A model generated the notes under the pieces. It ran no database searches, had not been told where the DNA came from, and saw nothing but the letters and a program-made list of their open reading frames with translations. Below are positions 42,745-56,524 of a DNA stretch of 64,000 nt, piece by piece. This DNA is from Planctomycetota bacterium (GTDB lineage: Bacteria > Planctomycetota > Planctomycetia > Gemmatales > Gemmataceae), in assembly GCA_016873095.1 (NCBI GenBank), contig VGYC01000014.1, positions 1 to 64,000 of the forward strand, in the 5' to 3' direction. Within the stretch, counting starts at the first letter, position 1. Every line of letters begins with the position of its first letter. Both the position numbers and the translations under genes were made by a program.

Positions 42745-43695
42745 TCAGTGTAGGGCCACCGCACCGGCGCCCGTGACCTCTTGCGTCCGGAATTCGGCCC
42801 AGACGGGCATGTGATCCGATACTTCCAGCGCCTGCTGCTGCGTGAGCCCGAACTCCGTCATGAGATCGAGCACGCCCCAGCGGCCGGTGTACTCGGCGGT
42901 GGCGCGGCGGTCGAAGACGATGTTGTCGTACAGCTTCGTCTTGCGCGTGTTCGAGGTGACGCCGGAAAGTGCGGCCGTGATGCCCGGCAGCCGGCCCAGG
43001 TTGCCCAGGTGGCGGTCGTCCACGTTCAGGTCGCCCAGCAGGATCACGTCGTCCTCGCCGCTGCCGTTCTTCTGCACGGACGTGAAGACATCCGCCAGGG
43101 CGTTCAGCTCGGTGGTCGTCTCATCCGGATCGGTGTGGATGTTGACGAGGTTGAAGGAAAAGGCCGGCACGCTCGCTTGCCCACGGGCGCGGAAGCGGAC
43201 CACGAACGGCTCGCGGTGCAACAGAGCGCGCGGGTCCGGGACCGTGTACGCGGAGCCGCGGTCCGCCTCGATGTGGGAAGTGTTGAATACGAAGGCGTAC
43301 TGCTCCTTGCTGTTGGTCCGTCCCAGCCGCGGGCCGACGATGAAATCATAATGCGAACCGTCGGCGTTGATCATCTGCACGAATTTCGGCATCACGCTGT
43401 CGTCGGTCGAGCGGATCTCCTGGATGGCCACGACGTCGAAGCGGCGGACCACCTTGGCGAGCCCGTCCATCACCTTGGGCTTCTTGAGCTTGCTGGTGCC
43501 GAAAACCTGGATGTTAAACGAGGCGATCTTGATGGTGTCGGTAGCCCCGGCGCTGCCGGCGGCTCCGTTCGCGGCCCCGGAGGGCCGGACCACCTTCTGT
43601 GCCCCCTGCTTGTCATCGCAGCCGATCAGGCCGACCGCGATTGCCAGGGACAGTGAAATCGCCGCAATCCAACGACCGCCGCGCAGGGGACTCAT
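42745..43695 (-). CDS. Endonuclease/exonuclease/phosphatase-fold lipoprotein
   Basis: 316 residues from ATG 43695 with AAGGAGG ahead. Lipobox IAVGLIGC (Cys26) marks an outer- or inner-membrane lipoprotein. DNase-I-like features are IKIASFNIQVFG, VVAIQEIRSTD (metal Glu), the catalytic region NLVNIHTDPDET (His), VILLGDLNVDD (Asp/Asn) and VSDHMPVWAEF (Asp-His). It may digest nucleic acid or act as a phosphodiesterase; the natural substrate is unknown. It is divergent from the arsR gene. Confidence 0.9.
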   Translation of the reverse strand: MSPLRGGRWIAAISLSLAIAVGLIGCDDKQGAQKVVRPSGAANGAAGSAGATDTIKIASFNIQVFGTSKLKKPKVMDGLAKVVRRFDVVAIQEIRSTDDSVMPKFVQMINADGSHYDFIVGPRLGRTNSKEQYAFVFNTSHIEADRGSAYTVPDPRALLHREPFVVRFRARGQASVPAFSFNLVNIHTDPDETTTELNALADVFTSVQKNGSGEDDVILLGDLNVDDRHLGNLGRLPGITAALSGVTSNTRKTKLYDNIVFDRRATAEYTGRWGVLDLMTEFGLTQQQALEVSDHMPVWAEFRTQEVTGAGAVALH

Positions 43696-43907
43696 GGAAA
43701 CCTCCTTGGCCACGACCTTGGGCGGCAAGCGTGGTAGCGGCAGCCGTGCATCTGGTCAAGACGGAACCGCTCGCCGTTGGCAATTGCGCGGATTCGCACT
43801 GGCGTCAGGTACTCATTTTTAATCGCGTTTCATGCAGACAGTGATATGATGATGCTGTGTCACCTAGGATTCGCGGCGCAATTGCAGGCATGAACCAAGG
43901 AATGGCG

Positions 43908-44222
43908 ATGAAAGATCCGATGCAGCCCAAGAAATGCGCAGAATTACTGGGCGCGCTCGCCGCCCCGGAGCGCTTGCGAATCGTTCGCGTGCTCCGCGAA
44001 GGGCCCAAGAGCGTCGGCGAGATCGCCGGGTTGATCGACGCCAGCCTGGTCAATGTTTCCCATCACCTGTCGGTGTTGCGCCATGCTGGACTGGTGCGCA
44101 ACAAGAAGAAAGGGCGCTTCGTCGTCTATTCAATCGCTCCCGGAGTCCTCGACAGCGAGGCGAAATCCTCGACCGATCATCTCGACCTGGGTTGCTGCCG
44201 GCTCGAGATCCCCAAGGAATAG
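43908..44222 (+). CDS. ArsR-family transcriptional regulator
   Basis: 104 residues from ATG 43908 (AAGGA seven bases upstream); 43890 and 43902 are alternatives. Winged helix-turn-helix: CAELLGALAAPERLRIVRVL, SVGEIAGLIDASLVNVSHHL, VLRHAGLVRNKKKGRFVVYS. The usual ArsR Cys-x-Cys metal site in the recognition helix is absent. Two cysteines lie at the C-terminus (LGCCRLEIPK), a placement seen in other planctomycete members. It probably senses an As(III)-like or other soft-metal ligand by that CC pair. It sits directly upstream of the DUF1559-to-ArsI run and probably regulates it through the dyad at 44296-44329. Confidence 0.85.
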   Translation: MKDPMQPKKCAELLGALAAPERLRIVRVLREGPKSVGEIAGLIDASLVNVSHHLSVLRHAGLVRNKKKGRFVVYSIAPGVLDSEAKSSTDHLDLGCCRLEIPKE

Positions 44223-44295: not shown

Positions 44296-44329
44296 CCATG
44301 ACAATCAAACATTCATAATAATGTCATGG
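44296..44329. promoter_or_regulatory. Candidate ArsR operator: CCATGACA - 18 - TGTCATGG
   Basis: An 8-base inverted repeat with an 18-base spacer lies between the arsR stop and the DUF1559 start. The AT-rich spacer contains CATTCATAATAATG, close to the ATTCA-type half-sites of ArsR-family operators. Location and symmetry suggest an operator for the downstream operon; no binding data. Confidence 0.5.
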
Positions 44330-44390
44330 TGTTTCAATCGCCTTGCAACTCCGCCGCGCCAGGAGGTTCAGTCATGTTGGGAGGTCCATG

Positions 44391-45437
44391 ATGCAGGATA
44401 GACACCGCCGATGTGCCTTCACTCTCATCGAGTTGCTGGTCGTGATCGCCATCATTGCCATCCTCATCGGCCTGCTGGTGCCGGCCGTGCAGAAGGTTCG
44501 CGCGGCAGCGGCACGCACGCAATGCGCCAACAACCTCAAGCAACTCGGCCTGGCCGTGCACCACTTCGAGAGCGGCACGCGCCGGCTGCCAGCTGCCTTT
44601 CGCGCCGAGGTGCCACCGGCCTTCGCCGGCATGCCCGCATATTTTTTCGCCTGGTCCGCCTTCGCCGAACTCAATCCCTACCTCGAGCAGACTGCGATCC
44701 ACAATAGTATGGACCTGTCCCTGCCCATCTGGATGCCGCCGTCGTACAACATTTCGGCGCCCAACCAGTTTGCAGTCGGGCAGTCCGTGTCGCTGTTTCT
44801 CTGTCCGAGCGACAATATGCAGCCGGTGGATGGCGGTTACGGCGTCGCCGCCTTCGGTCCCACCAACTACGCTGTGTGCGTCGGCACCGGCACGACCGGC
44901 GGCGGCGCGCCTTTTGGCCTCATGTGGAACTCCGACGGCATGTTCACCGCCAAGCATAAGGGACGCATTGCCGAGATAACCGACGGCTTGAGCAACACGG
45001 CCATGATCTCGGAAAGCACCCTGGGCACCGGCCCCAGCAACGCCAGTAGCCCGACCATTCCCGGCAGCCCGCAAACCGTGTACGCCTACGTGAAGGGCAA
45101 GCCCCTGAGCCCGGCGGAATGCGCGGCCGCGACCGACTGGAACGTGTCGCAGAAGCGCGGCTATATGTGGGCCACCGGCGAGCTGCGCTGCTCGTCCTAC
45201 AACCACTTTCTCACGCCCAACTCGCCGACCCCCGATTGCCTGACCAACGACTACACGCCGGGCGAGGGCAAGTACACCTCCGCCGGATTCCGCGCCGCCC
45301 GCAGCAAGCACGGCGGCGGCGTTAACCTCGTGCTCGGCGACGGCTCGGTCCGCTTCGTCTCCGACAGCGTTTCGCAAACGACCTGGTGGGCCCTGGCCAC
45401 GCGCGGTAGCAACGACATCCCCGGCAACGACTATTGA
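44391..45437 (+). CDS. DUF1559 prepilin-like secreted protein
   Basis: 348 residues (ATG 44391, or 44388; GGGAGG ahead). It has the type IV prepilin-like N-terminus RRCAFTLIELLVVIAIIAIL, with the methylation/cleavage pattern before the hydrophobic helix, and the DUF1559 (SBP_bac_10) body with LVPAVQKVRAAAARTQCANN, LAVHHFESGTRRLPAA and the C-terminal KHGGGVNLVLGDGSVRFVSD. This family is the commonest in planctomycetes and is thought to form pseudopilin-like surface assemblies; individual roles are unknown. It is the first gene of a tightly spaced run (15, 6, 11 and 1 base gaps). Confidence 0.92.
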   Translation: MQDRHRRCAFTLIELLVVIAIIAILIGLLVPAVQKVRAAAARTQCANNLKQLGLAVHHFESGTRRLPAAFRAEVPPAFAGMPAYFFAWSAFAELNPYLEQTAIHNSMDLSLPIWMPPSYNISAPNQFAVGQSVSLFLCPSDNMQPVDGGYGVAAFGPTNYAVCVGTGTTGGGAPFGLMWNSDGMFTAKHKGRIAEITDGLSNTAMISESTLGTGPSNASSPTIPGSPQTVYAYVKGKPLSPAECAAATDWNVSQKRGYMWATGELRCSSYNHFLTPNSPTPDCLTNDYTPGEGKYTSAGFRAARSKHGGGVNLVLGDGSVRFVSDSVSQTTWWALATRGSNDIPGNDY

Positions 45438-45451
45438 CACGGAGCGTGCGC

Positions 45452-46237
45452 ATGGCCACGGCAACGCTTAACGCCACGCTCGACGGCGCACGACACGCGC
45501 ACTACCAGCGCGAGGGTTACGTCGTCCTGCGCGGCCTGTTCACGGCCGCCGACGTGGACGAGATGTCCGCCGAATCCGACCGCCTGCTGGAGCGCGTCGA
45601 TCTCATGACCCCCGACAACATGCGCATCCGCTTCAAGCCGCATGTCGATACCGGGCAGCAGCTCTTCGAAGTCTTCGATCCGTTTGTCGATCTCGCTCCG
45701 GTTTGTCTGCGCTACGCGCTGGATCGGCGGCTGCTCGATGCCCTGGCCAACATCTATGGTGAGGAGGCCTGTCTCTTCAAGGACAAGCTGATCTACAAGC
45801 CGCCGGGCTCGGCAGGGGCGCACCTGCACCAGGATTACATCGCCTGGCCACGGTTTCCGAAGTCGTTCCTCACGGTCGTCGTCGCGATCGACCCGTTCGA
45901 CAGCGACAACGGCTGCACGGAGGTGTTTCCACGCGTTCACCGGCACGGCTATCTTTCGCCCGCCGACGGCAAGCACTACCAGCTCGACGACGCCGTGCTG
46001 GCCGGCGTCGAGCCGACGCCGCTGCTGCTGGCGCCGGGCGATGTCGCCATCTTCGGCTGCTTCACGCCCCACCGCTCCGCCGCCAACCGCAGCGCGCGCT
46101 GGCGGCGCGGGCTGTTCCTCAGCTACAACGCCGCCTCCGAAGGCGGCAGGCAACGTGACCAGCATTACCAGGACTTTCACGCCTGGCTGCGCGACAAGCA
46201 TCCACCCGCCACGCGCGACAGGCTCTACTTTCGTTGA
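45452..46237 (+). CDS. Phytanoyl-CoA dioxygenase (PhyH) family protein
   Basis: 261 residues, Fe(II)/2-oxoglutarate oxygenase fold. The iron site is HLHQDY (His and Asp, about residue 126-131) plus FTPHRSAANRSARWRRGLFL (distal His and the 2-oxoglutarate-binding Arg, about 201-220). A TVVVAIDPFDSDNGCTEVFP strand is typical. Start ATG 45452 with GGAGCG. The substrate is unknown. In this operon it might oxidise an organic adduct or a lipid; this is speculation. Confidence 0.88.
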   Translation: MATATLNATLDGARHAHYQREGYVVLRGLFTAADVDEMSAESDRLLERVDLMTPDNMRIRFKPHVDTGQQLFEVFDPFVDLAPVCLRYALDRRLLDALANIYGEEACLFKDKLIYKPPGSAGAHLHQDYIAWPRFPKSFLTVVVAIDPFDSDNGCTEVFPRVHRHGYLSPADGKHYQLDDAVLAGVEPTPLLLAPGDVAIFGCFTPHRSAANRSARWRRGLFLSYNAASEGGRQRDQHYQDFHAWLRDKHPPATRDRLYFR

Positions 46238-46243
46238 TGAGAC

Positions 46244-46654
46244 ATGCGCAACATTCGACTCATACGCTGGAGTCCGGGAGTATTCCTGTTGCTCGTCCTG
46301 CTTTCAGGATGCAGCAAGGGGACGGCAACGGTGAGCGGGCGCGTGGCGCACAACGGCAAGGCGCTCGTCGGCGGCAGCGTGACGCTGGTGGGCGAAGGCG
46401 GCACGCGCGTGACCGGCCGCATCAACCCGGACGGCACCTACAAGATCGACGAGGTCCCGGTGGGGCTGGTCAAGATCGCCGTCAAGGCGAGCAGCTCGCC
46501 TGGATTGCCGCCGGTGCTGGTTCCCTGGGCCCCCGAAGAGAGCGACCCGGAAGCAAGCGACGGCGTGCCGGCCGGCTACGCCGACGCGGACAAGTCCGGC
46601 TTGACGTTGACCGTCGCCGCCGGACAGCAGACTTTCGATATCAACCTGCCTTGA
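46244..46654 (+). CDS. Small lipoprotein with carboxypeptidase-regulatory-like fold
   Basis: 136 residues with lipobox LLVLLSGC (Cys23). The rest is a CarboxypepD_reg-like beta-sandwich (TVSGRVAHNGKALVGGSVTL, INPDGTYKIDEVPVGLVKIA) and an acidic stretch PEESDPEASDG. Such lipoproteins are frequent next to DUF1559 genes in planctomycetes and may belong to the same surface assembly. It begins six bases after the PhyH stop. Confidence 0.88.
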   Translation: MRNIRLIRWSPGVFLLLVLLSGCSKGTATVSGRVAHNGKALVGGSVTLVGEGGTRVTGRINPDGTYKIDEVPVGLVKIAVKASSSPGLPPVLVPWAPEESDPEASDGVPAGYADADKSGLTLTVAAGQQTFDINLP

Positions 46655-46665
46655 GCGACGGACGG

Positions 46666-47988
46666 ATGATGGCCCCGCAAGTCACATTCACATCGCTGGA
46701 AAGCCTGGCAATGCCTCGCTCGACGACGGCGACGTGGCTAGCCGTCCTGGTCGCGTCGCTGGCGATGGTGGCGACGTTGCCGGGCCGCACCCATGGCCTC
46801 GGACTCATCACCGAGCCGCTCTTGCGCGAATTGCAAGTCAGCCGTGTCGGTTACGCAAGCATCAATCTCTGGGCCACGCTGCTGGGCGCGCTTTTTTGCC
46901 TGCCCTGGGGCGGGCTGATCGACCGCTGCGGCGTCCGCGTCATGCTCGGCGTCACGCTGGCCTTGCTCGCCGGCGTGGTCCTCGCCATGACCGCGATGCG
47001 CGGCGACTGGCCGATGCTCGGCGCCATGCCGCTTGACCTGTTCCTGCTCGTGATGCTGACGCGCGGCTTCGGGCAGAGCGCGCTGTCGGTGGTCAGCATC
47101 ACGCTGGTGGGCCGCCTGACCAGCCGCCGACCGGGATTGATCATCGGCGTCTATTCGTTCCTGGTAGGTGTTGGCTTTTCGCTGGCGTTCGCGCTCATCA
47201 AGTTGGTATCGCAACGCTGGCAACCGGACTGGCGTGAGCTGTGGGCCGGCATCGGTTGGTGCGTGCTGGCGCTGGCGCCGGTCGGCTGGCTGATTGCCCG
47301 CGCCCCCGGTTCCTCGCCTGCCGGGAGAGGGGAGAATGCAGTCGCTGCCGGTTTTACGTTGCGTCAGGCATTGTTGTCGCCGGCATTCTGGGTGTTCGCC
47401 ATCGCAACCTCGTTGTATGGCATGATCGCTTCTGGCATGTCGCTTTTCAACGAGGCGATCCTCGCGGAGCGCGGCTTCGACCGAGACGTGTATTTGACGA
47501 TCATGGCGATCACGCCCGTGGTTGCGCTCGCCAGCAACCTGGCATCGGGCTGGCTGGCCACGCGTTGGCGAATCGGTTCGATCCTGGGTTTGGCCATGCT
47601 CATGCTGGCAGTGGCGCTGGCATGCTTTCCGCTGGTCCGGACGCTGGCCGATGTCTATGTTTATGCGGCGGCGCTGGGCGTCGCCGGCGGCATGGTCACC
47701 GTCGTGTTCTTCGCTGTCTGGAGCCAGGTATTTGGCAAGCGACACCTGGGGCAGATCCAGGGGGCGGCGCAGATGCTGACGGTGCTGGGCTCCGCGCTCG
47801 GGCCGTTGCTGCTGGCCCTGTGCAATGACCGGACTGGATCGTACGTGCCGATGCTGACCGGCGTGGCGATTGCCAGCGCGCTGCTGGCCGTCGCCTCCTG
47901 TCGAGTGTCGATGCCGGTGTTGCAGAGCGTTCGGACCGCTGAAGAATCGCTGATGGTAGACAAGTTACGACCAATCAATGGAGAATAA
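46666..47988 (+). CDS. MFS transporter in the ArsI operon
   Basis: About 440 residues with 12 hydrophobic helices. Features: LPWGGLIDRCGVRVMLGVTL (motif A), FGQSALSVVSITLVGRLTSR, SFLVGVGFSLAFALIKLVSQ, LASGWLATRWRIGSILG. Start ATG 46666 (or 46669); ATG 46711 has a better spaced GGAAAG and would give a 425-residue chain with the same helices. Its stop is one base from the lyase start, so the two are coupled. By context it may export an arsenical; sequence alone does not prove this. Confidence 0.85.
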   Translation: MMAPQVTFTSLESLAMPRSTTATWLAVLVASLAMVATLPGRTHGLGLITEPLLRELQVSRVGYASINLWATLLGALFCLPWGGLIDRCGVRVMLGVTLALLAGVVLAMTAMRGDWPMLGAMPLDLFLLVMLTRGFGQSALSVVSITLVGRLTSRRPGLIIGVYSFLVGVGFSLAFALIKLVSQRWQPDWRELWAGIGWCVLALAPVGWLIARAPGSSPAGRGENAVAAGFTLRQALLSPAFWVFAIATSLYGMIASGMSLFNEAILAERGFDRDVYLTIMAITPVVALASNLASGWLATRWRIGSILGLAMLMLAVALACFPLVRTLADVYVYAAALGVAGGMVTVVFFAVWSQVFGKRHLGQIQGAAQMLTVLGSALGPLLLALCNDRTGSYVPMLTGVAIASALLAVASCRVSMPVLQSVRTAEESLMVDKLRPINGE

Positions 47989-47989
47989 C

Positions 47990-48844
47990 ATGACCACGAC
48001 CGCACTGCCGGTGACCTCGACTGTTCGCTTTCACCTGTCGCTGAACGTCTCCAACCTGGAGCGTGCCATCGGCTTTTATCGGGTGCTGTTCGGCGTGGAG
48101 CCGGCAAAACGCCGGCCTGACTACGCCAAGTTCGAGATGGAGGATCCGCCCATCGTGATGTCGCTGGAGCCGACGACGCGGCCGGTGGGCGGGCCGCTCA
48201 ACCACCTCGGTTTCCGCATGCCGGACGCCGCCGCCTTGGTCGCCATGCAGCAGCGCCTCGAACTGGCCGGCATCCGCTCGCAGCGCGAGGAAGGCGTCGA
48301 ATGCTGCTACGCCCGCCAAACCAAGTTCTGGGTGACCGATCCGGATAACACGCTCTGGGAAATCTACACGCTGGACGAGGACATCGAGCACCGCGGCGAA
48401 GGGCAAAGCCTGGAGCAGATGCTGCCGCATGCCGGCGCGGGTCGTGCTGAACTGGCGGTCTGGGAGCATCGCCTCACCGATCCGGTGCCGACGACCTTTC
48501 CGCTGGCCGATGCCAGCGTCGACGAAGTCCGGTTGCGCGGCACCTTCAACCTGCCGCTGGAGGAAGATGTCAAGCAGCGCGTGCTGCAAGAGTCGGAGCG
48601 CGTCTTGCGTCCGGGCGGCAGGCTGTTCGTGCATGTGCTGGTGGGTGACAAGCCGTTGGCCGGCCCGCCGCACCTGCCCGGCCCGGCCGCCCTCGTTCAG
48701 CACGTGCCGCTCGACGACGAACCGCCGCGCCTCGTCAAGGCAGCCGGCTTCGTTCGGGTGCAGCTTCTCAAGTTCGACGCCAAGCCGTGCTTCCAGCGCG
48801 ACGGCGTGTCCATGCGCGAGATGCAAATGGAGGCATACAAATAA
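47990..48844 (+). CDS. arsI: ArsI/CadI-like VOC lyase fused to a methyltransferase-like domain
   Basis: 284 residues. The N-terminal about 130 residues are a vicinal-oxygen-chelate domain of the ArsI (C-As lyase)/CadI group: VRFHLSLNVSNLERAIGFYR, RPDYAKFEMEDPP, VECCYARQTKFWVTDPD. Predicted metal ligands are His15, His72 and Glu124; Cys105-Cys106 is the vicinal pair that binds trivalent organoarsenicals in known ArsI. The remaining about 150 residues resemble the C-terminal part of a class I methyltransferase (ESERVLRPGGRLFVHVLVGD, HVPLDDEPPRLVKAAGF), but I do not see an intact SAM-binding glycine loop. ATG 47990 has GGAGA upstream. It could be a lyase alone, with the tail structural. Confidence 0.72.
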   Translation: MTTTALPVTSTVRFHLSLNVSNLERAIGFYRVLFGVEPAKRRPDYAKFEMEDPPIVMSLEPTTRPVGGPLNHLGFRMPDAAALVAMQQRLELAGIRSQREEGVECCYARQTKFWVTDPDNTLWEIYTLDEDIEHRGEGQSLEQMLPHAGAGRAELAVWEHRLTDPVPTTFPLADASVDEVRLRGTFNLPLEEDVKQRVLQESERVLRPGGRLFVHVLVGDKPLAGPPHLPGPAALVQHVPLDDEPPRLVKAAGFVRVQLLKFDAKPCFQRDGVSMREMQMEAYK

Positions 48845-48910: not shown

Positions 48911-50512
48911 ATGTCCACAATCGCCGACGCGATCGTTCGCCGTCTCGCCGCCCACGGCGTGAGTCATGTTTTTGGCTATCCGGGGGGACAGCTCACGCCG
49001 ATCTACGACGCCCTGCATCGGCAAAACGACATTCGCCATATACTTGCGCGGCACGAGCAGGCCGCCTGCTTCATGGCCGATGGCTACGCCCGTGCCTCCG
49101 GCAAGCCTGGCGTGTGCCTGGCTGTGTGTGGCCCCGGCGCCTTCAACGCCGCCACCCCGCTCGCAACGGCATTCACGGACTCCGTGCCCGTGCTGCTCAT
49201 CAGCGGGCAAGTGCACTCCGGCGGGCTGGGTGCGCGCTCCGGCTATTATCACGAGAACGAACAGCTGGCCGCTTTTTCCGGTTTTACCAAGCTGAGCCTG
49301 CGCCTCAACGATGCCACGGAAGTCGACGATGCAGTGGACCGCGCATTCGCGGCGATGACGGAGGGTCGGCCGGGAACGGCTTTTCTCGAAGTTCCCGTGG
49401 ATGTGCAGCGAACGGAGGTCGGCGATCCGGCGCCGAAGCCGTTGCCAGCTGCGCAGCCGCCCAGGGCGCCGGCCGCGCGCGACGTCGAGGCGCTCGCGCG
49501 GCTGCTGTCCACCTGGCAACGGCCATTGCTGCTTGCCGGCGGCGGCGTGGTCACGGCAGGCGCGGAGAAACAGCTTGCCGACCTGGCGACGCGCCTCGGA
49601 GCACCGGTCCTGCACACGCTGATGGGCAAGGCGGCGCTGACCAGCACGCACCGCCTCAAGGCGGGACTGCCGTGGCTGAAGGCGACTTCGGACCTGAGCA
49701 ACATGGAAGCGTTCATGTCGCCGCTGCTCGCCCAGGCGGATGGACTGCTGGCCGTCGGCTGCCGCTTCAGCCAGGCGGCCACGGGCAGCTGGGCCATGAA
49801 GCCGCCCAGCAGTCTCGCGCACATCGATATCGATCCTGCCGAGATTGGCCGGCACTATGCGACGACGCTGGGCGTCGTCGCCGACGCCGCCAGAACCCTG
49901 GAGGAATTACTGGAGAGGTTGCCGACGTCACCGCGTCCGCCCTGGCTCCTGCCCGATCCGCCCGCCCGAGCATGGCAGTTGCCCGATCTCGACCTTGTCG
50001 GCTCGCTGCGGCAGGCGCTGCCGCGCGACGCCATCGTCGTGGCCGACATCACGCGCCTGAGCTATATCCTTCTCTCGGAATTCCCGGTCTATGAGTCGCG
50101 CACCTTTTTGCACCCGGCAGGCTTCGTGTCGATGGGCTTCGGAATTCCGGCGGCGCTGGGCGCCCGCGCCGCCATGCCGCAATGCACGATCGTCGTCGTC
50201 GCCGGCGACGGCTGCTTTCTCATGTCCGGCATGGAACTGGCCAGCGCCGTGCAGGAAAGGTTGCCGATCGTCGTGGTGCTGATCAATGATGGCAGCTTGA
50301 GTCTCATCAAGGCGATCCAGCACCGACGCTACAACGACCGCTTCATCGGAGTCGATCTGAAGAATCCAGACTTTGCGATGTTCGCGAGGTCCTTCGGCGT
50401 CCGCAGCTGGCAAGTGAGCGATGATGCTGCATTCAAGGATGCACTGGCGCACGCCATCGCGTGTGGCGCGCCGGCGCTGGTGGAGGTGAGGCTGCCAGGC
50501 AGTCTGGCGTAG
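48911..50512 (+). CDS. Thiamine-pyrophosphate enzyme, acetolactate-synthase-like
   Basis: 533 residues in the standard three-domain layout. The N-terminal PYR domain has the catalytic Glu in ILARHEQAACFMADGYARAS. The middle domain has PLLLAGGGVVTAGAEKQLAD. The C-terminal PP domain has the TPP/Mg motif VAGDGCFLMSGMELASAVQE, ending in INDGS. It is close to acetolactate synthase large subunits and to related decarboxylases, but no small regulatory subunit (ilvN) or ilvC lies nearby, so another 2-oxoacid is possible. Strong GAGGAG ribosome binding site. It follows the lyase by 66 bases and may be cotranscribed. Confidence 0.88.
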   Translation: MSTIADAIVRRLAAHGVSHVFGYPGGQLTPIYDALHRQNDIRHILARHEQAACFMADGYARASGKPGVCLAVCGPGAFNAATPLATAFTDSVPVLLISGQVHSGGLGARSGYYHENEQLAAFSGFTKLSLRLNDATEVDDAVDRAFAAMTEGRPGTAFLEVPVDVQRTEVGDPAPKPLPAAQPPRAPAARDVEALARLLSTWQRPLLLAGGGVVTAGAEKQLADLATRLGAPVLHTLMGKAALTSTHRLKAGLPWLKATSDLSNMEAFMSPLLAQADGLLAVGCRFSQAATGSWAMKPPSSLAHIDIDPAEIGRHYATTLGVVADAARTLEELLERLPTSPRPPWLLPDPPARAWQLPDLDLVGSLRQALPRDAIVVADITRLSYILLSEFPVYESRTFLHPAGFVSMGFGIPAALGARAAMPQCTIVVVAGDGCFLMSGMELASAVQERLPIVVVLINDGSLSLIKAIQHRRYNDRFIGVDLKNPDFAMFARSFGVRSWQVSDDAAFKDALAHAIACGAPALVEVRLPGSLA

Positions 50513-53047: not shown

Positions 53048-56000
53048 ATGAATAACCCGGAACCCAGTCTTCCGGCGGCTGCCGGGGGGCCGGCGCCGCG
53101 GGTCTGGCTCGACCGCAAGGGGCGGGTGTACGAGCCGGCCGTGGGGCCGCGACTACGTATCCTGCTCGCCCTGATCTTCGCGTCCGTGGCCCTGCTCGGT
53201 GCCTCGGGCTTCTACCTGCTCGCCATCCGCGGCGTCGAGATGTCATCGACGCAGACGCTCACGGGCTTCTTCTCGCTGGCCATGACGTTGTTCCACGTCT
53301 TGCTCGGCGTCGCCATCGTCGTCCCCTTCCTCATCTTCGGCTTCCTTCATTACTCGAGCGCTCGTCTCCGTCCGAACCGTCGCGCTGTCAAGCTCGGCAT
53401 CGTTCTTTTCATTACCGGCATCCTGGTCTGTCTGACGGGACTCGCGCTCATTCAACTGGAGGGTCTGCCGCAGCTGGGCGAGTGCAGTTTGGGCCGCTGG
53501 TTGGTGCTGGGGCTGCACGTGCTGACGCCGGTGGCGGGGGTGCTCATTTACGTCCTGCATCGCCGGGCCGGGCCGGACATCAACTGGCGCTGGGGCATTT
53601 CCTGGGGCGTGGCCGCCGGCGTCTTCACCGTTGCCATGATCTACATGCACTCGCTCGATCCGCGCAAGTGGCACGCCGCCGGCTCGCCGGAGGGGGAGAA
53701 GTACTTCGAGCCTTCCAAGGTGCGGACCACGACGGCCGGCTTCATCCCCGCCGGCGTGCTGATGATGGACGAGTATTGCATGAAGTGCCATGCCGACATC
53801 TACGACAACCACATTCACTCCGTGCACAAGTTCAGCTCGTTCAACAACCAGGCCTACCTGTTCAGCGTGAAGGAGACGCGCGAGCGCATGGGCGTTCGCG
53901 CCTCGCGCTGGTGCGCCGGCTGCCACGATCCGGTGCCGTTCTTCAGCGGGCAGTTCGACGATCCGAAGTTCGATATGGTCAATCACCCGACGGCCAAGGC
54001 GGGCATCACCTGCACCGTCTGTCATGCCATCACGCATGTCAACAGCCGTTCCGGCAACGCCGACTTCACCATCGAGGAGCCGATCCACTATCCGTTCGCC
54101 CGGAGCGATAACCCCCTCCTCCAGTGGTTGAACAACCAGCTTGTGAAGGCGAAGCCGGACTTTCACAAGAAGACGTTCTTGAAGCCGTTCCATCGCACTG
54201 CCGAGTTCTGCTCGACGTGCCACAAGGTCGGCCTGCCGCAAGAAGTCAACCACTATCGCGAATTCCTGCTCGGCCAGGATCATCCGACATCGTTCCATCT
54301 GAGCGGCGTTTCCGGACACGGCGCCCGCAGCTGGTACTATCCGGAAATCTCCAAGACCAAGTGCGCCGATTGCCACATGCCGCTCACGGCCAGCAAGGAC
54401 TTCGGCAGCCGCGATTTCGACGGCAGCGGCGTGCGCAAGATTCACAGCCACACCTTCCTGGGGGCCAACACCGGCATGCCGGCCCTGGAGAAGTTCCACG
54501 GCTTCGAGAAGGTCATCGATGCCAACCGAAAGTTCCTGACGCAAGGCGTGGACGGCACATCGCCGACGCTGCGTATCGATCTCTTCGGTCTCAAGAAGCT
54601 CGACAAGGACAGCACCGTGGATGCACCGTTGCTCGGCGATCAGCCGTTGCGGCCGAATCTGCCCACGATTCAGCCGGGTGGAACCTACATGTCCGAAGTC
54701 GTGATTCGCACGCTCAACGTCGGCCATCATTTCACGCAAGGGACCACCGACTCGAACGAGGTCTGGGTCGAGTTCACGGCAAAGTCGGGGCAGCGCCTCA
54801 TCGGTCGCAGCGGCGGCATGGATGGCGGTGCGGATATCGGCCGGGTCGATCCCTGGTCGCACTTCCTCAACGTCTTCATGCTCGATCGCCACGGTAACCG
54901 CGTGGATCGCCGCAATCCGCAGGACATCTTCACGCCCCTTTACAACCACCAGATTCCGCCGGGCGCAGCTCAGGTCACGCACTTTCGGTTTTGCGTGCCG
55001 GCGGACGCGACCGAGCCGATCGAGCTGTCGGCTCGCGTCCGCTATCGCAAGTTCGACTACACCTACATGGAGCATGTCTACGGCCCCGGCAAGGTGCCGA
55101 AGCTGCCGATCGTCGATCTGTGTTCCGACACGGTCACGCTGCCCGTGGCCGGCGGCAAATCCGTAGCGCCGCAGACCACGAAGATACCCGCCTGGCAACG
55201 CTGGAACGACTACGGCATCGGCTGCTTCCTCGAAGGCGGACCAGACGGCAAGGAAGGTGGCGAGCTGGCACAGGCGGAGCGCTCCTTTCAGCGACTCCTG
55301 AGTCCGGAATTCGCGCGCACGGCCGCGCACGGGCACGGCCACCTCAACCTCGCCCGCGTCCACTGGGCCTACGGCGGACACAAGCGTCTCGAGCAGGCCC
55401 GGCAGGCACTCATCCTGGCCCGCAAGGTCGATCCCCCGGCACCGTGGCAGACCGTCGCCTGGTTCACCGGGCTGGTCAATCTCCAGAACGGCAACCTCGA
55501 TGAGGCGATCGTTGACTTCAAGCAGATCCTCGATCCGGCCAATCGCGATCCGCGCCGCAAGCAGGACTTCACCGGCGACTTCGTCGTCCGCAACGAGCTG
55601 GGCAAGGCGCTGTTCCTGCGCGGCCAGCAGGAAAGCGGCGACGAGGCGAGGCCGTTCTACCGCGCGGCCATCGGCGAGTTCGAGAAGACGCTGGCACTGC
55701 ACGCCGAAGACGTCGTCGCCCACGAGTTCCTCAACAAGTGCTACAACCGCCTCGCCGAGCATGCCGGCAAGGGCCTGCCCATGCTCGACTCGTTGCACGA
55801 CGACGAGCAACGTTTCCGCGACCTTGCCGTCAAGGTGGACCGGTCGCGGCATGACCCCGAGCAGTTCATCGAACAGGCGCGCAGGCTGGCGCAGGAGCTG
55901 TCGGCCAAGAAGCTGTCGCTGCGCATGCCGGTGATCCTCGACATCCGCAAGACGTGCCTGACGGTCTCGAGCTCGACGCCGGATATCGGTCCACGCCTGC

Positions 56001-56524
56001 TCGTCGGCCAGTCGCTCGCGCAACTGGACCGGCTCATCCTGGAGCGCTTGCCGGAACTGGGCAAGGAGCTGACGACGGAGAACGGCGACAGGTCGCAGGA
56101 GCGCGCCCGCTCGCTCGCGGACGCGCTCACGCAGCTTGCCATCAAGCCGGCAGCGGTGAACGCCCGGCCGATGCTCGGCTTCGCCGCCCAGTGGCCTGAA
56201 CCGGGTCTGCCGGTTAACCTGGCTCTGGAAGCACTGGCGGTCGGCGGCTATCTGCAAGGTCCGTTGCCGCCGCCGCGCTTGCTGGCCATGCACAGCTTGC
56301 GCAGCAAGGTCAAGTCTCTGTTCGCGCATGGCGACGAGAAAACCAGGGCCGCCGCCGCGCTGGTGCTGGCTCGCATTCATCAGGTTTATCACGGCATCTA
56401 CCGCGTGGATGACAACGCCCAGGGACAGGCACTGGCGGCGGCTCGGCGACAGTATCCCGCAGCCGATCGCGCTTCCCACCCCATCGTCATCTACGACCTC
56501 CAACCGCCAAGGGCAGGGGACTGA
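53048..56524 (+). CDS. Membrane-anchored penta-haem cytochrome c with TPR domain
   Basis: 1158 residues. Five transmembrane helices at the N-terminus (about 35-58, 78-110, 118-142, 155-175, 190-210). Five CxxCH haem motifs follow: CMKCH (244), CAGCH (289), CTVCH (322), CSTCH (388) and CADCH (439). A beta-rich domain (about 500-700) and a C-terminal TPR-like helical half (about 730-1100) complete it. The layout suggests quinol or electron-carrier oxidation at the membrane with a large periplasmic scaffold. The coupled downstream gene is a CRTAC1 lipoprotein. No oxidase or reductase subunit is seen, so the terminal acceptor is unknown. Confidence 0.9.
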   Translation: MNNPEPSLPAAAGGPAPRVWLDRKGRVYEPAVGPRLRILLALIFASVALLGASGFYLLAIRGVEMSSTQTLTGFFSLAMTLFHVLLGVAIVVPFLIFGFLHYSSARLRPNRRAVKLGIVLFITGILVCLTGLALIQLEGLPQLGECSLGRWLVLGLHVLTPVAGVLIYVLHRRAGPDINWRWGISWGVAAGVFTVAMIYMHSLDPRKWHAAGSPEGEKYFEPSKVRTTTAGFIPAGVLMMDEYCMKCHADIYDNHIHSVHKFSSFNNQAYLFSVKETRERMGVRASRWCAGCHDPVPFFSGQFDDPKFDMVNHPTAKAGITCTVCHAITHVNSRSGNADFTIEEPIHYPFARSDNPLLQWLNNQLVKAKPDFHKKTFLKPFHRTAEFCSTCHKVGLPQEVNHYREFLLGQDHPTSFHLSGVSGHGARSWYYPEISKTKCADCHMPLTASKDFGSRDFDGSGVRKIHSHTFLGANTGMPALEKFHGFEKVIDANRKFLTQGVDGTSPTLRIDLFGLKKLDKDSTVDAPLLGDQPLRPNLPTIQPGGTYMSEVVIRTLNVGHHFTQGTTDSNEVWVEFTAKSGQRLIGRSGGMDGGADIGRVDPWSHFLNVFMLDRHGNRVDRRNPQDIFTPLYNHQIPPGAAQVTHFRFCVPADATEPIELSARVRYRKFDYTYMEHVYGPGKVPKLPIVDLCSDTVTLPVAGGKSVAPQTTKIPAWQRWNDYGIGCFLEGGPDGKEGGELAQAERSFQRLLSPEFARTAAHGHGHLNLARVHWAYGGHKRLEQARQALILARKVDPPAPWQTVAWFTGLVNLQNGNLDEAIVDFKQILDPANRDPRRKQDFTGDFVVRNELGKALFLRGQQESGDEARPFYRAAIGEFEKTLALHAEDVVAHEFLNKCYNRLAEHAGKGLPMLDSLHDDEQRFRDLAVKVDRSRHDPEQFIEQARRLAQELSAKKLSLRMPVILDIRKTCLTVSSSTPDIGPRLLVGQSLAQLDRLILERLPELGKELTTENGDRSQERARSLADALTQLAIKPAAVNARPMLGFAAQWPEPGLPVNLALEALAVGGYLQGPLPPPRLLAMHSLRSKVKSLFAHGDEKTRAAAALVLARIHQVYHGIYRVDDNAQGQALAAARRQYPAADRASHPIVIYDLQPPRAGD

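Follow-up and report, generated by a model that had tools for sequence, protein, structure and literature searches.

An ArsI-type lyase domain fused to an ArsM-derived tail without the SAM-binding half in a conserved planctomycete operon

Introduction

ArsI, a C–As lyase, converts methylarsenite into arsenite and formaldehyde (PMC6205960), whereas ArsM enzymes methylate arsenic and, in the case of CmArsM, bind As(III) through Cys72, Cys174 and Cys224 (PMC7248198). Fusions and trimmed forms of the proteins involved have precedents. In ArsRM of Brevundimonas sp. M20, an ArsR–ArsM fusion, the methyltransferase is reported to be active (PMC10190100), and the N-terminal domain of Dre2 is a methyltransferase fold minus two helices and a strand (PMC3440578). 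With regard to sensing, a site formed by the C-terminal vicinal cysteine pair of SpArsR answers to methylarsenite and not to arsenite (PMC11868830).

Here we describe a gene whose product joins an ArsI-type domain to a tail derived from ArsM, located in a stretch of 64,000 nucleotides from a Planctomycetota bacterium of the Gemmataceae (GenBank assembly GCA_016873095.1, contig VGYC01000014.1, positions 1 to 64,000; hereafter, the window). The protein resembles ArsI from Thermomonospora curvata (TcArsI; 5C4P and 5CB9) in its VOC fold, metal-ligand positions, vicinal cysteine pair and the position of Lys112, but differs from ArsI in carrying about 150 further residues that come from ArsM (family members measure 271–396 residues, against about 150 for ArsI) and, in the window, in belonging to an operon with genes for PhyH and MFS proteins rather than lying beside ACR3 and ArsC. 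With ArsM/AS3MT (CmArsM, 4FR0; CrArsM, 5EVJ; human AS3MT, 8XT7; models NF040538 and NF008823) it shares the fold of the C-terminal half, sequence similarity across 171 columns and (for the majority of homologues) a C-terminal domain with the motif YKGPF, but it lacks the SAM-binding half, motif I and the three arsenite-binding cysteines, and the ArsM-like part sits behind a lyase. The N-terminal domain of Dre2/anamorsin (4M7R) offers a parallel in that a trimmed methyltransferase fold is kept as a module in a protein with another task, although that task (that is, Fe–S assembly, with no VOC lyase fusion) belongs to an unrelated pathway. ArsRM likewise fuses an arsenic-pathway protein to a methyltransferase; unlike in ArsRM, the methyltransferase part of the present fusion has no SAM site. 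Trimmed methyltransferase folds and active ars methyltransferase fusions are thus already known, whereas neither the ArsI–tail fusion nor its operon is described in the literature that we searched, a body of work outside which most subscription journals lie.

Features of the fused gene and its operon in the window (residue numbers refer to the fusion protein)
Feature	Coordinates	Strand	Basis or remark
ArsR/SmtB repressor, Cys in helix 1 and C-terminal CysCys pair	43857..44222	+	conserved neighbour
DUF1559-type prepilin-like protein, first operon gene	44343..45437	+	conserved
PhyH Fe(II)/2-oxoglutarate oxygenase	45434..46237	+	iron triad and Arg224 conserved
MFS transporter, separated from the downstream fusion by 1 bp	46669..47988	+	conserved operon gene
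Fused gene: ArsI/CadI VOC lyase domain and SAM-less ArsM-derived tail	47990..48844	+	284 aa
VOC (ArsI) domain, residues 12–133	48023..48388	+	NF041414, TcArsI, Foldseek
His15, aligned with TcArsI Gln8 (metal-ligand position)	48032..48034	+	His in nearly all homologues
His72, metal-ligand position, equivalent to TcArsI His65	48203..48205	+	alignment, conservation
Cys105-Cys106, vicinal pair, predicted trivalent-arsenical binder	48302..48307	+	alignment, conservation
Glu124, metal-ligand position, equivalent to TcArsI Glu117	48359..48361	+	alignment, conservation
ArsM-derived tail, residues 154–284: strand in beta1 place, then beta4 to beta7	48449..48841	+	models, Foldseek, VIA
Cys267 of the PCF motif, almost invariant among family members	48788..48790	+	planctomycete ArsM has PW here

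An ArsI-type lyase domain

The reading frame runs from an ATG at 47990, preceded by a ribosome-binding-like stretch (GGAG), to a TAA stop at 48842–48844. An initial annotation, made from the sequence alone, had identified its first part as an ArsI-type VOC lyase, and this identity is borne out: the NCBIfam model for ArsI/CadI (NF041414), which covers CadI (that is, cadmium-induced) proteins as well as ArsI, matches residues 13–141 with 137.3 bits against a curated cut-off of 116, and the chains of the TcArsI structures align to the fusion without gaps (E 1.5e-23). All of the active-site positions of TcArsI are kept in this alignment, in which Lys112 falls on TcArsI Lys105; as is established for the family, Gln8, His65 and Glu117 of TcArsI together with its CysCys pair form the sites at which ArsI binds metal and arsenical. 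In a Foldseek search with the model of the window protein, the best matches were C–As lyases, with about 40% identity in the TcArsI alignments; TcArsI was superposed on the VOC part with an rmsd of about 11 Å, perhaps because the half-domains are placed differently in the crystal and in the monomer model. Judged by its sequence, the VOC half possesses every ArsI/CadI hallmark that could be tested (that is, model score, metal-ligand triad and vicinal cysteine pair).

A tail derived from ArsM

The remainder of the protein had been suggested to resemble the distal half of an ArsM-like or related methyltransferase, and the stretch RPGGRLFVHVLVGD is indeed present. Domain models agree with this suggestion, given that Pfam Methyltransf_11 matches residues 169–214 by its distal columns only (53–95 of 95) and that the NCBIfam ArsM models match the tail from their middle onward. 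In AlphaFold2 predictions (41 family members modelled), the window tail forms a compact unit with a pLDDT of 96–98; the placement of the two domains relative to each other in the full-length model is unreliable (pTM 0.56), and this applies equally to the closeness of Cys267 to Cys105-Cys106. The first Foldseek match of the window model outside VOC folds was CrArsM, onto which VIA-align 2 placed residues 154–284 with a Z of 12.7 (126 residues aligned, rmsd 3.5 Å, 24% identity). As VIA results for the whole window model were dominated by VOC folds, the tail was modelled separately. When the tail and C-domain of L038, a close homologue, were modelled on their own (pLDDT 95), the top 13 Foldseek matches were without exception ArsM/AS3MT, the human protein included, at E values from 5e-12 to 1e-10; the next fold followed at E 6e-7. 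The first match other than ArsM was the methyltransferase-like domain of anamorsin (Z 10.7 on alignment). Comparison of the tails with planctomycete ArsM by hhalign gave a probability of 99.6% and an E of 2e-24 over 171 columns that include the YKGPF C-domain. On the basis of the Foldseek ranking, the VIA match and the profile comparison, we conclude that the tail descends from an ArsM-like methyltransferase; its predicted fold, which would have spoken against this origin, as the initial annotation had proposed, if unrelated to methyltransferases, matched ArsM ahead of any other methyltransferase.

Aligned with methyltransferases, the tail extends from the beta1 position to the end of the fold, but no more than about 130 residues out of about 200 are paired. 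The natural reading of the models is that a single strand (xVVWEHR) replaces beta1 and that the chain resumes at beta4, such that the glycine loop, beta2, beta3 and the accompanying helices would be gone. Across 62 aligned family members, neither the linker nor the first strand contains a GxGxG motif; the SAM loop, which the initial annotation had already failed to see clearly, is indeed absent. Also absent are the three cysteines with which ArsM binds As(III), the N-terminal half being missing, SNCVLNL being replaced by RGTFNLP and the WSGC segment by LPGPA. Since both the SAM-binding half and the arsenite cysteines are missing, the tail is predicted to be incapable of methylation, and the suspicion that it is degenerate as a methyltransferase is supported; the paradox of opposing activities on one chain (that is, demethylation versus methylation) consequently disappears. 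Given that the ArsM fold is present and that these two requirements for catalysis are lacking, the tail is ArsM-derived rather than an ArsM.

The tail also appears to have acquired a feature, as alignment indicates that Cys267 is newly gained relative to planctomycete ArsM. Cys105-Cys106 and Cys267 occur together in 48 family members and are both missing in 5, with 4 and 1 mixed cases (Fisher 1.5e-4), but this pattern amounts to only 3–4 changes on the tree and is therefore not independent evidence; we accordingly do not use the coupling as a strong argument, significant as the table is, and treat it as a hypothesis. The YKGPF domain (about 65 residues), a further C-terminal domain of ArsM, is kept in most homologues and is missing from the window protein and from at least three other lineages; the scripted count of 14 rows without YKGPF includes two motif misses (L014 and L071) and one truncated contig (L048).

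Distribution and conservation of the fusion

A search for the same fusion elsewhere, as had been proposed, recovered 58 distinct full-length members (the window protein included), most of which are 34–65% identical to the window protein and nearly all of which are planctomycete. By record title, one member lies outside the Planctomycetes (L066, titled Verrucomicrobiales); the public label of another record, titled Bacteroidales MAG (L036; JAIXLE010000134.1), looks wrong. With 58 fused members, and with the tail under purifying selection (dN/dS about 0.04–0.24 where dS was measurable), a chance open reading frame or a frameshift can be ruled out. Pairwise identity averages 40% in the tail and 63% in the VOC domain, which makes the tail the less conserved part. 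That every member keeps the tail was dropped as an argument, because members had been selected for having both parts. Plain ArsI from other sources has no such tail: among 114 plasmid records with a match, none covers 80% of the query.

Fusions often occur as tandem copies, in one of which the cysteine pair has diverged or been lost. In five such second copies (L009, L029, L030, L010 and L012), VECC has become VCGY or is rearranged, and Trp stands in place of Cys267 (PWF/AWF); copies without VECC may possibly represent a subunit with a different task beside the canonical copy. In another second copy (L014, 708–1418, forward strand; G001), the VOC domain is joined directly to the YKGPF C-domain and the methyltransferase-like half is absent, and the tail is therefore not indispensable in every paralogue. 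Two further loci hold other arrangements: a frame that consists of the tail and C-domain alone, with no VOC domain, being either a remnant or a free-standing tail (L103, 7291–7821, reverse strand; G454), and a cluster (L104, 7316–12182; G009 contig C8) of broken or diverged copies round an MFS gene, comprising VOC pieces and an ArsM-half piece as well as a fused copy without the lyase residues. The complete genome of Limnoglobus roseus PX52 (L031) has five matches to the family profile. The genome from which the window derives also encodes, on another contig, an ArsM-like methyltransferase with both halves (G000:C119:20364-21074, forward strand, locus L092; 304-aa frame) and CCP/SNC/SGC cysteines.

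Operon context

The usual arrangement, on one strand, is DUF1559, PhyH oxygenase, MFS carrier and fusion, with ArsR alongside; PhyH and MFS were each recognized at 34 of 42 loci, many of which are on short contigs. Among 99 related genomes, PhyH (E<=1e-40) is present in 15 of the 17 that hold a tailed ArsI and in 0 of the 82 that do not (Fisher 6e-16), and MFS in 15/17 and 2/82, respectively; with two genomes removed in which the fusion is cut at a contig end (G014 and G056), the tests give 1.7e-12 (PhyH) and 3.7e-11 (MFS), values that treat genomes as independent although related genomes are not. The operon PhyH is absent from genomes that hold only plain ArsI. No ACR3/ArsB arsenite efflux pump or ArsC arsenate reductase was found among the neighbouring genes in the window, which sets this operon apart from a classical ars operon; in two genomes (G324 and G432), the operon adjoins a canonical ArsR–ACR3–ArsC–ArsI set.

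In the PhyH protein, at least 93% of the 34 homologues from such operons retain the iron ligands HxD...H (132, 134 and 213) and the 2-oxoglutarate-binding Arg224. Its best-scoring model is that of methylphosphonate hydroxylase, far under the cut-off (85 of 500 bits), and in the PDB it neighbours ectoine hydroxylase and further members of the PhyH oxygenases. The CysCys pair is present in every operon ArsR of which the C terminus is available (20/21), a likeness to SpArsR, from which the operon ArsR differs by the extra conserved cysteine in helix 1; among solved structures, metal sensors (NmtR and SmtB, for example) are its nearest relatives. Between arsR and the DUF1559 gene, positions 44309–44324 form a perfect dyad, ACATTCATAATAATGT, which is a possible operator; sites like it in other operons did not stand out from shuffles.

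Several other genes of the window lie in or near the operon. Between PhyH and MFS is a small gene for a lipoprotein-like product with a weak CarboxypepD_reg match (46244–46654, forward strand), which is not among the neighbour families shared by other operons. An acetolactate-synthase-type thiamine pyrophosphate enzyme (48911–50512, forward strand) begins 66 bp behind the fusion and was rejected as part of the module, being found beside the fusion in only 1 of 42 loci (that of the window's genome). Farther along, a gene at 53048–56524 (forward strand) encodes a large membrane protein that has TPR-like repeats and motifs resembling those of multi-haem cytochromes and that gives only weak family matches, and upstream of the operon, on the opposite strand, is a member of the endonuclease/exonuclease/phosphatase family (42745–43728).

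Discussion

We suggest, with moderate confidence, that the fusion is probably an organoarsenical C–As lyase equipped with a dead ArsM accessory module and embedded in a regulated organoarsenical module. By homology to ArsI, His15, His72 and Glu124 would hold Fe(II), Cys105-Cys106 would bind a trivalent organoarsenical (for example, methylarsenite) and O2-dependent cleavage of the C–As bond would yield arsenite and an aldehyde. The tail may act as an accessory domain without catalysis of its own, covering the lyase site, supplying a third thiolate or docking partners, and Cys267 is perhaps this thiolate, located near Cys105-Cys106 for the capture or release of arsenic. The initial annotation had proposed a degenerate arsenical-binding module; with regard to such a role, the tail has lost the arsenic-binding cysteines of ArsM but has gained Cys267. 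The PhyH 2-oxoglutarate oxygenase probably oxidizes an organoarsenical either ahead of the lyase or in parallel with it, the MFS carrier may move substrate or product and the CysCys-bearing ArsR may sense a trivalent arsenical. More tentatively, the operon could be a planctomycete organoarsenical-degrading module in which the dead ArsM half is an arsenical-handling domain, with Cys267 as third thiolate, and a dedicated oxygenase readies a substrate that is out of reach for plain ArsI.

What this substrate may be, and whether the tail touches arsenic at all, leads to other explanations. It is possible that the module degrades a larger organoarsenical (candidates include arsenosugars, arsinothricin and arsonates), in which case PhyH would hydroxylate the carbon adjacent to As, the tailed ArsI would cleave the C–As bond and the tail would recognize the bigger substrate. 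The intact Fe and 2-oxoglutarate residues of PhyH, the methylphosphonate hydroxylase model as its best score (though one far under the cut-off) and its strict tie to tailed, not plain, ArsI fit such a route, but the substrates of PhyH enzymes cannot be read from sequence, and its structural neighbours are the ectoine hydroxylase and PhyH oxygenases named above. Somewhat doubtful, in our view, is a tail that is purely structural (that is, a scaffold for dimerization or for docking of PhyH or MFS, with no arsenic contact, as in Dre2/anamorsin). The rank of anamorsin as first non-ArsM match, the comparably trimmed fold of the Dre2 N-domain and the almost strict co-occurrence of tail and PhyH speak for a scaffold, yet scaffolding alone can hardly explain a nearly invariant cysteine that appears newly gained, nor that Cys267 is missing from one paralogue clade in which the vicinal pair, or the usual spacing of that pair, is missing as well.

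Two further explanations depart more strongly from a lyase with a dead accessory module. The VOC domain might be a metal protein resembling CadI, and the operon might answer to a metal (cadmium, for instance) or another toxic compound instead of arsenic, which would accord with the coverage of both ArsI and CadI by NF041414, with the metal sensors as nearest solved relatives of ArsR and with the lack of ACR3 and ArsC in the window operon; we nevertheless regard this as unlikely, given the arsenic-enzyme ancestry of both halves, the CysCys pair of ArsR and the canonical ars genes adjacent to the operon in two genomes. Highly improbable is a bifunctional enzyme in which the tail pairs in trans with an N-terminal half to form an active methyltransferase. 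The initial annotation had considered such a missing half, and the genome does have a separate ArsM (contig C119), but that protein has both of its halves, no gene for an ArsM N-terminal half is present in the operon, the tail folds alone and compactly with its own strand in the place of beta1, and the arsenite cysteines of the ArsM C-terminal half have been lost from it; we therefore reject a split methyltransferase that awaits its partner.

In the reading that we favour, that of a lyase with a disarmed ArsM module, one chain unites enzymes that act in opposite directions in the methylarsenic cycle, the methylating half being disarmed and its fold retained. Should the tail indeed help the lyase, it would offer a clear example of half an enzyme taking on an accessory role in dealing with the same toxic element. 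The strict association with PhyH and MFS marks an uncharacterized module that bears on how Planctomycetes handle methylated arsenic, and its recurrence across this phylum in one conserved operon points to an undescribed way of handling organic arsenic.
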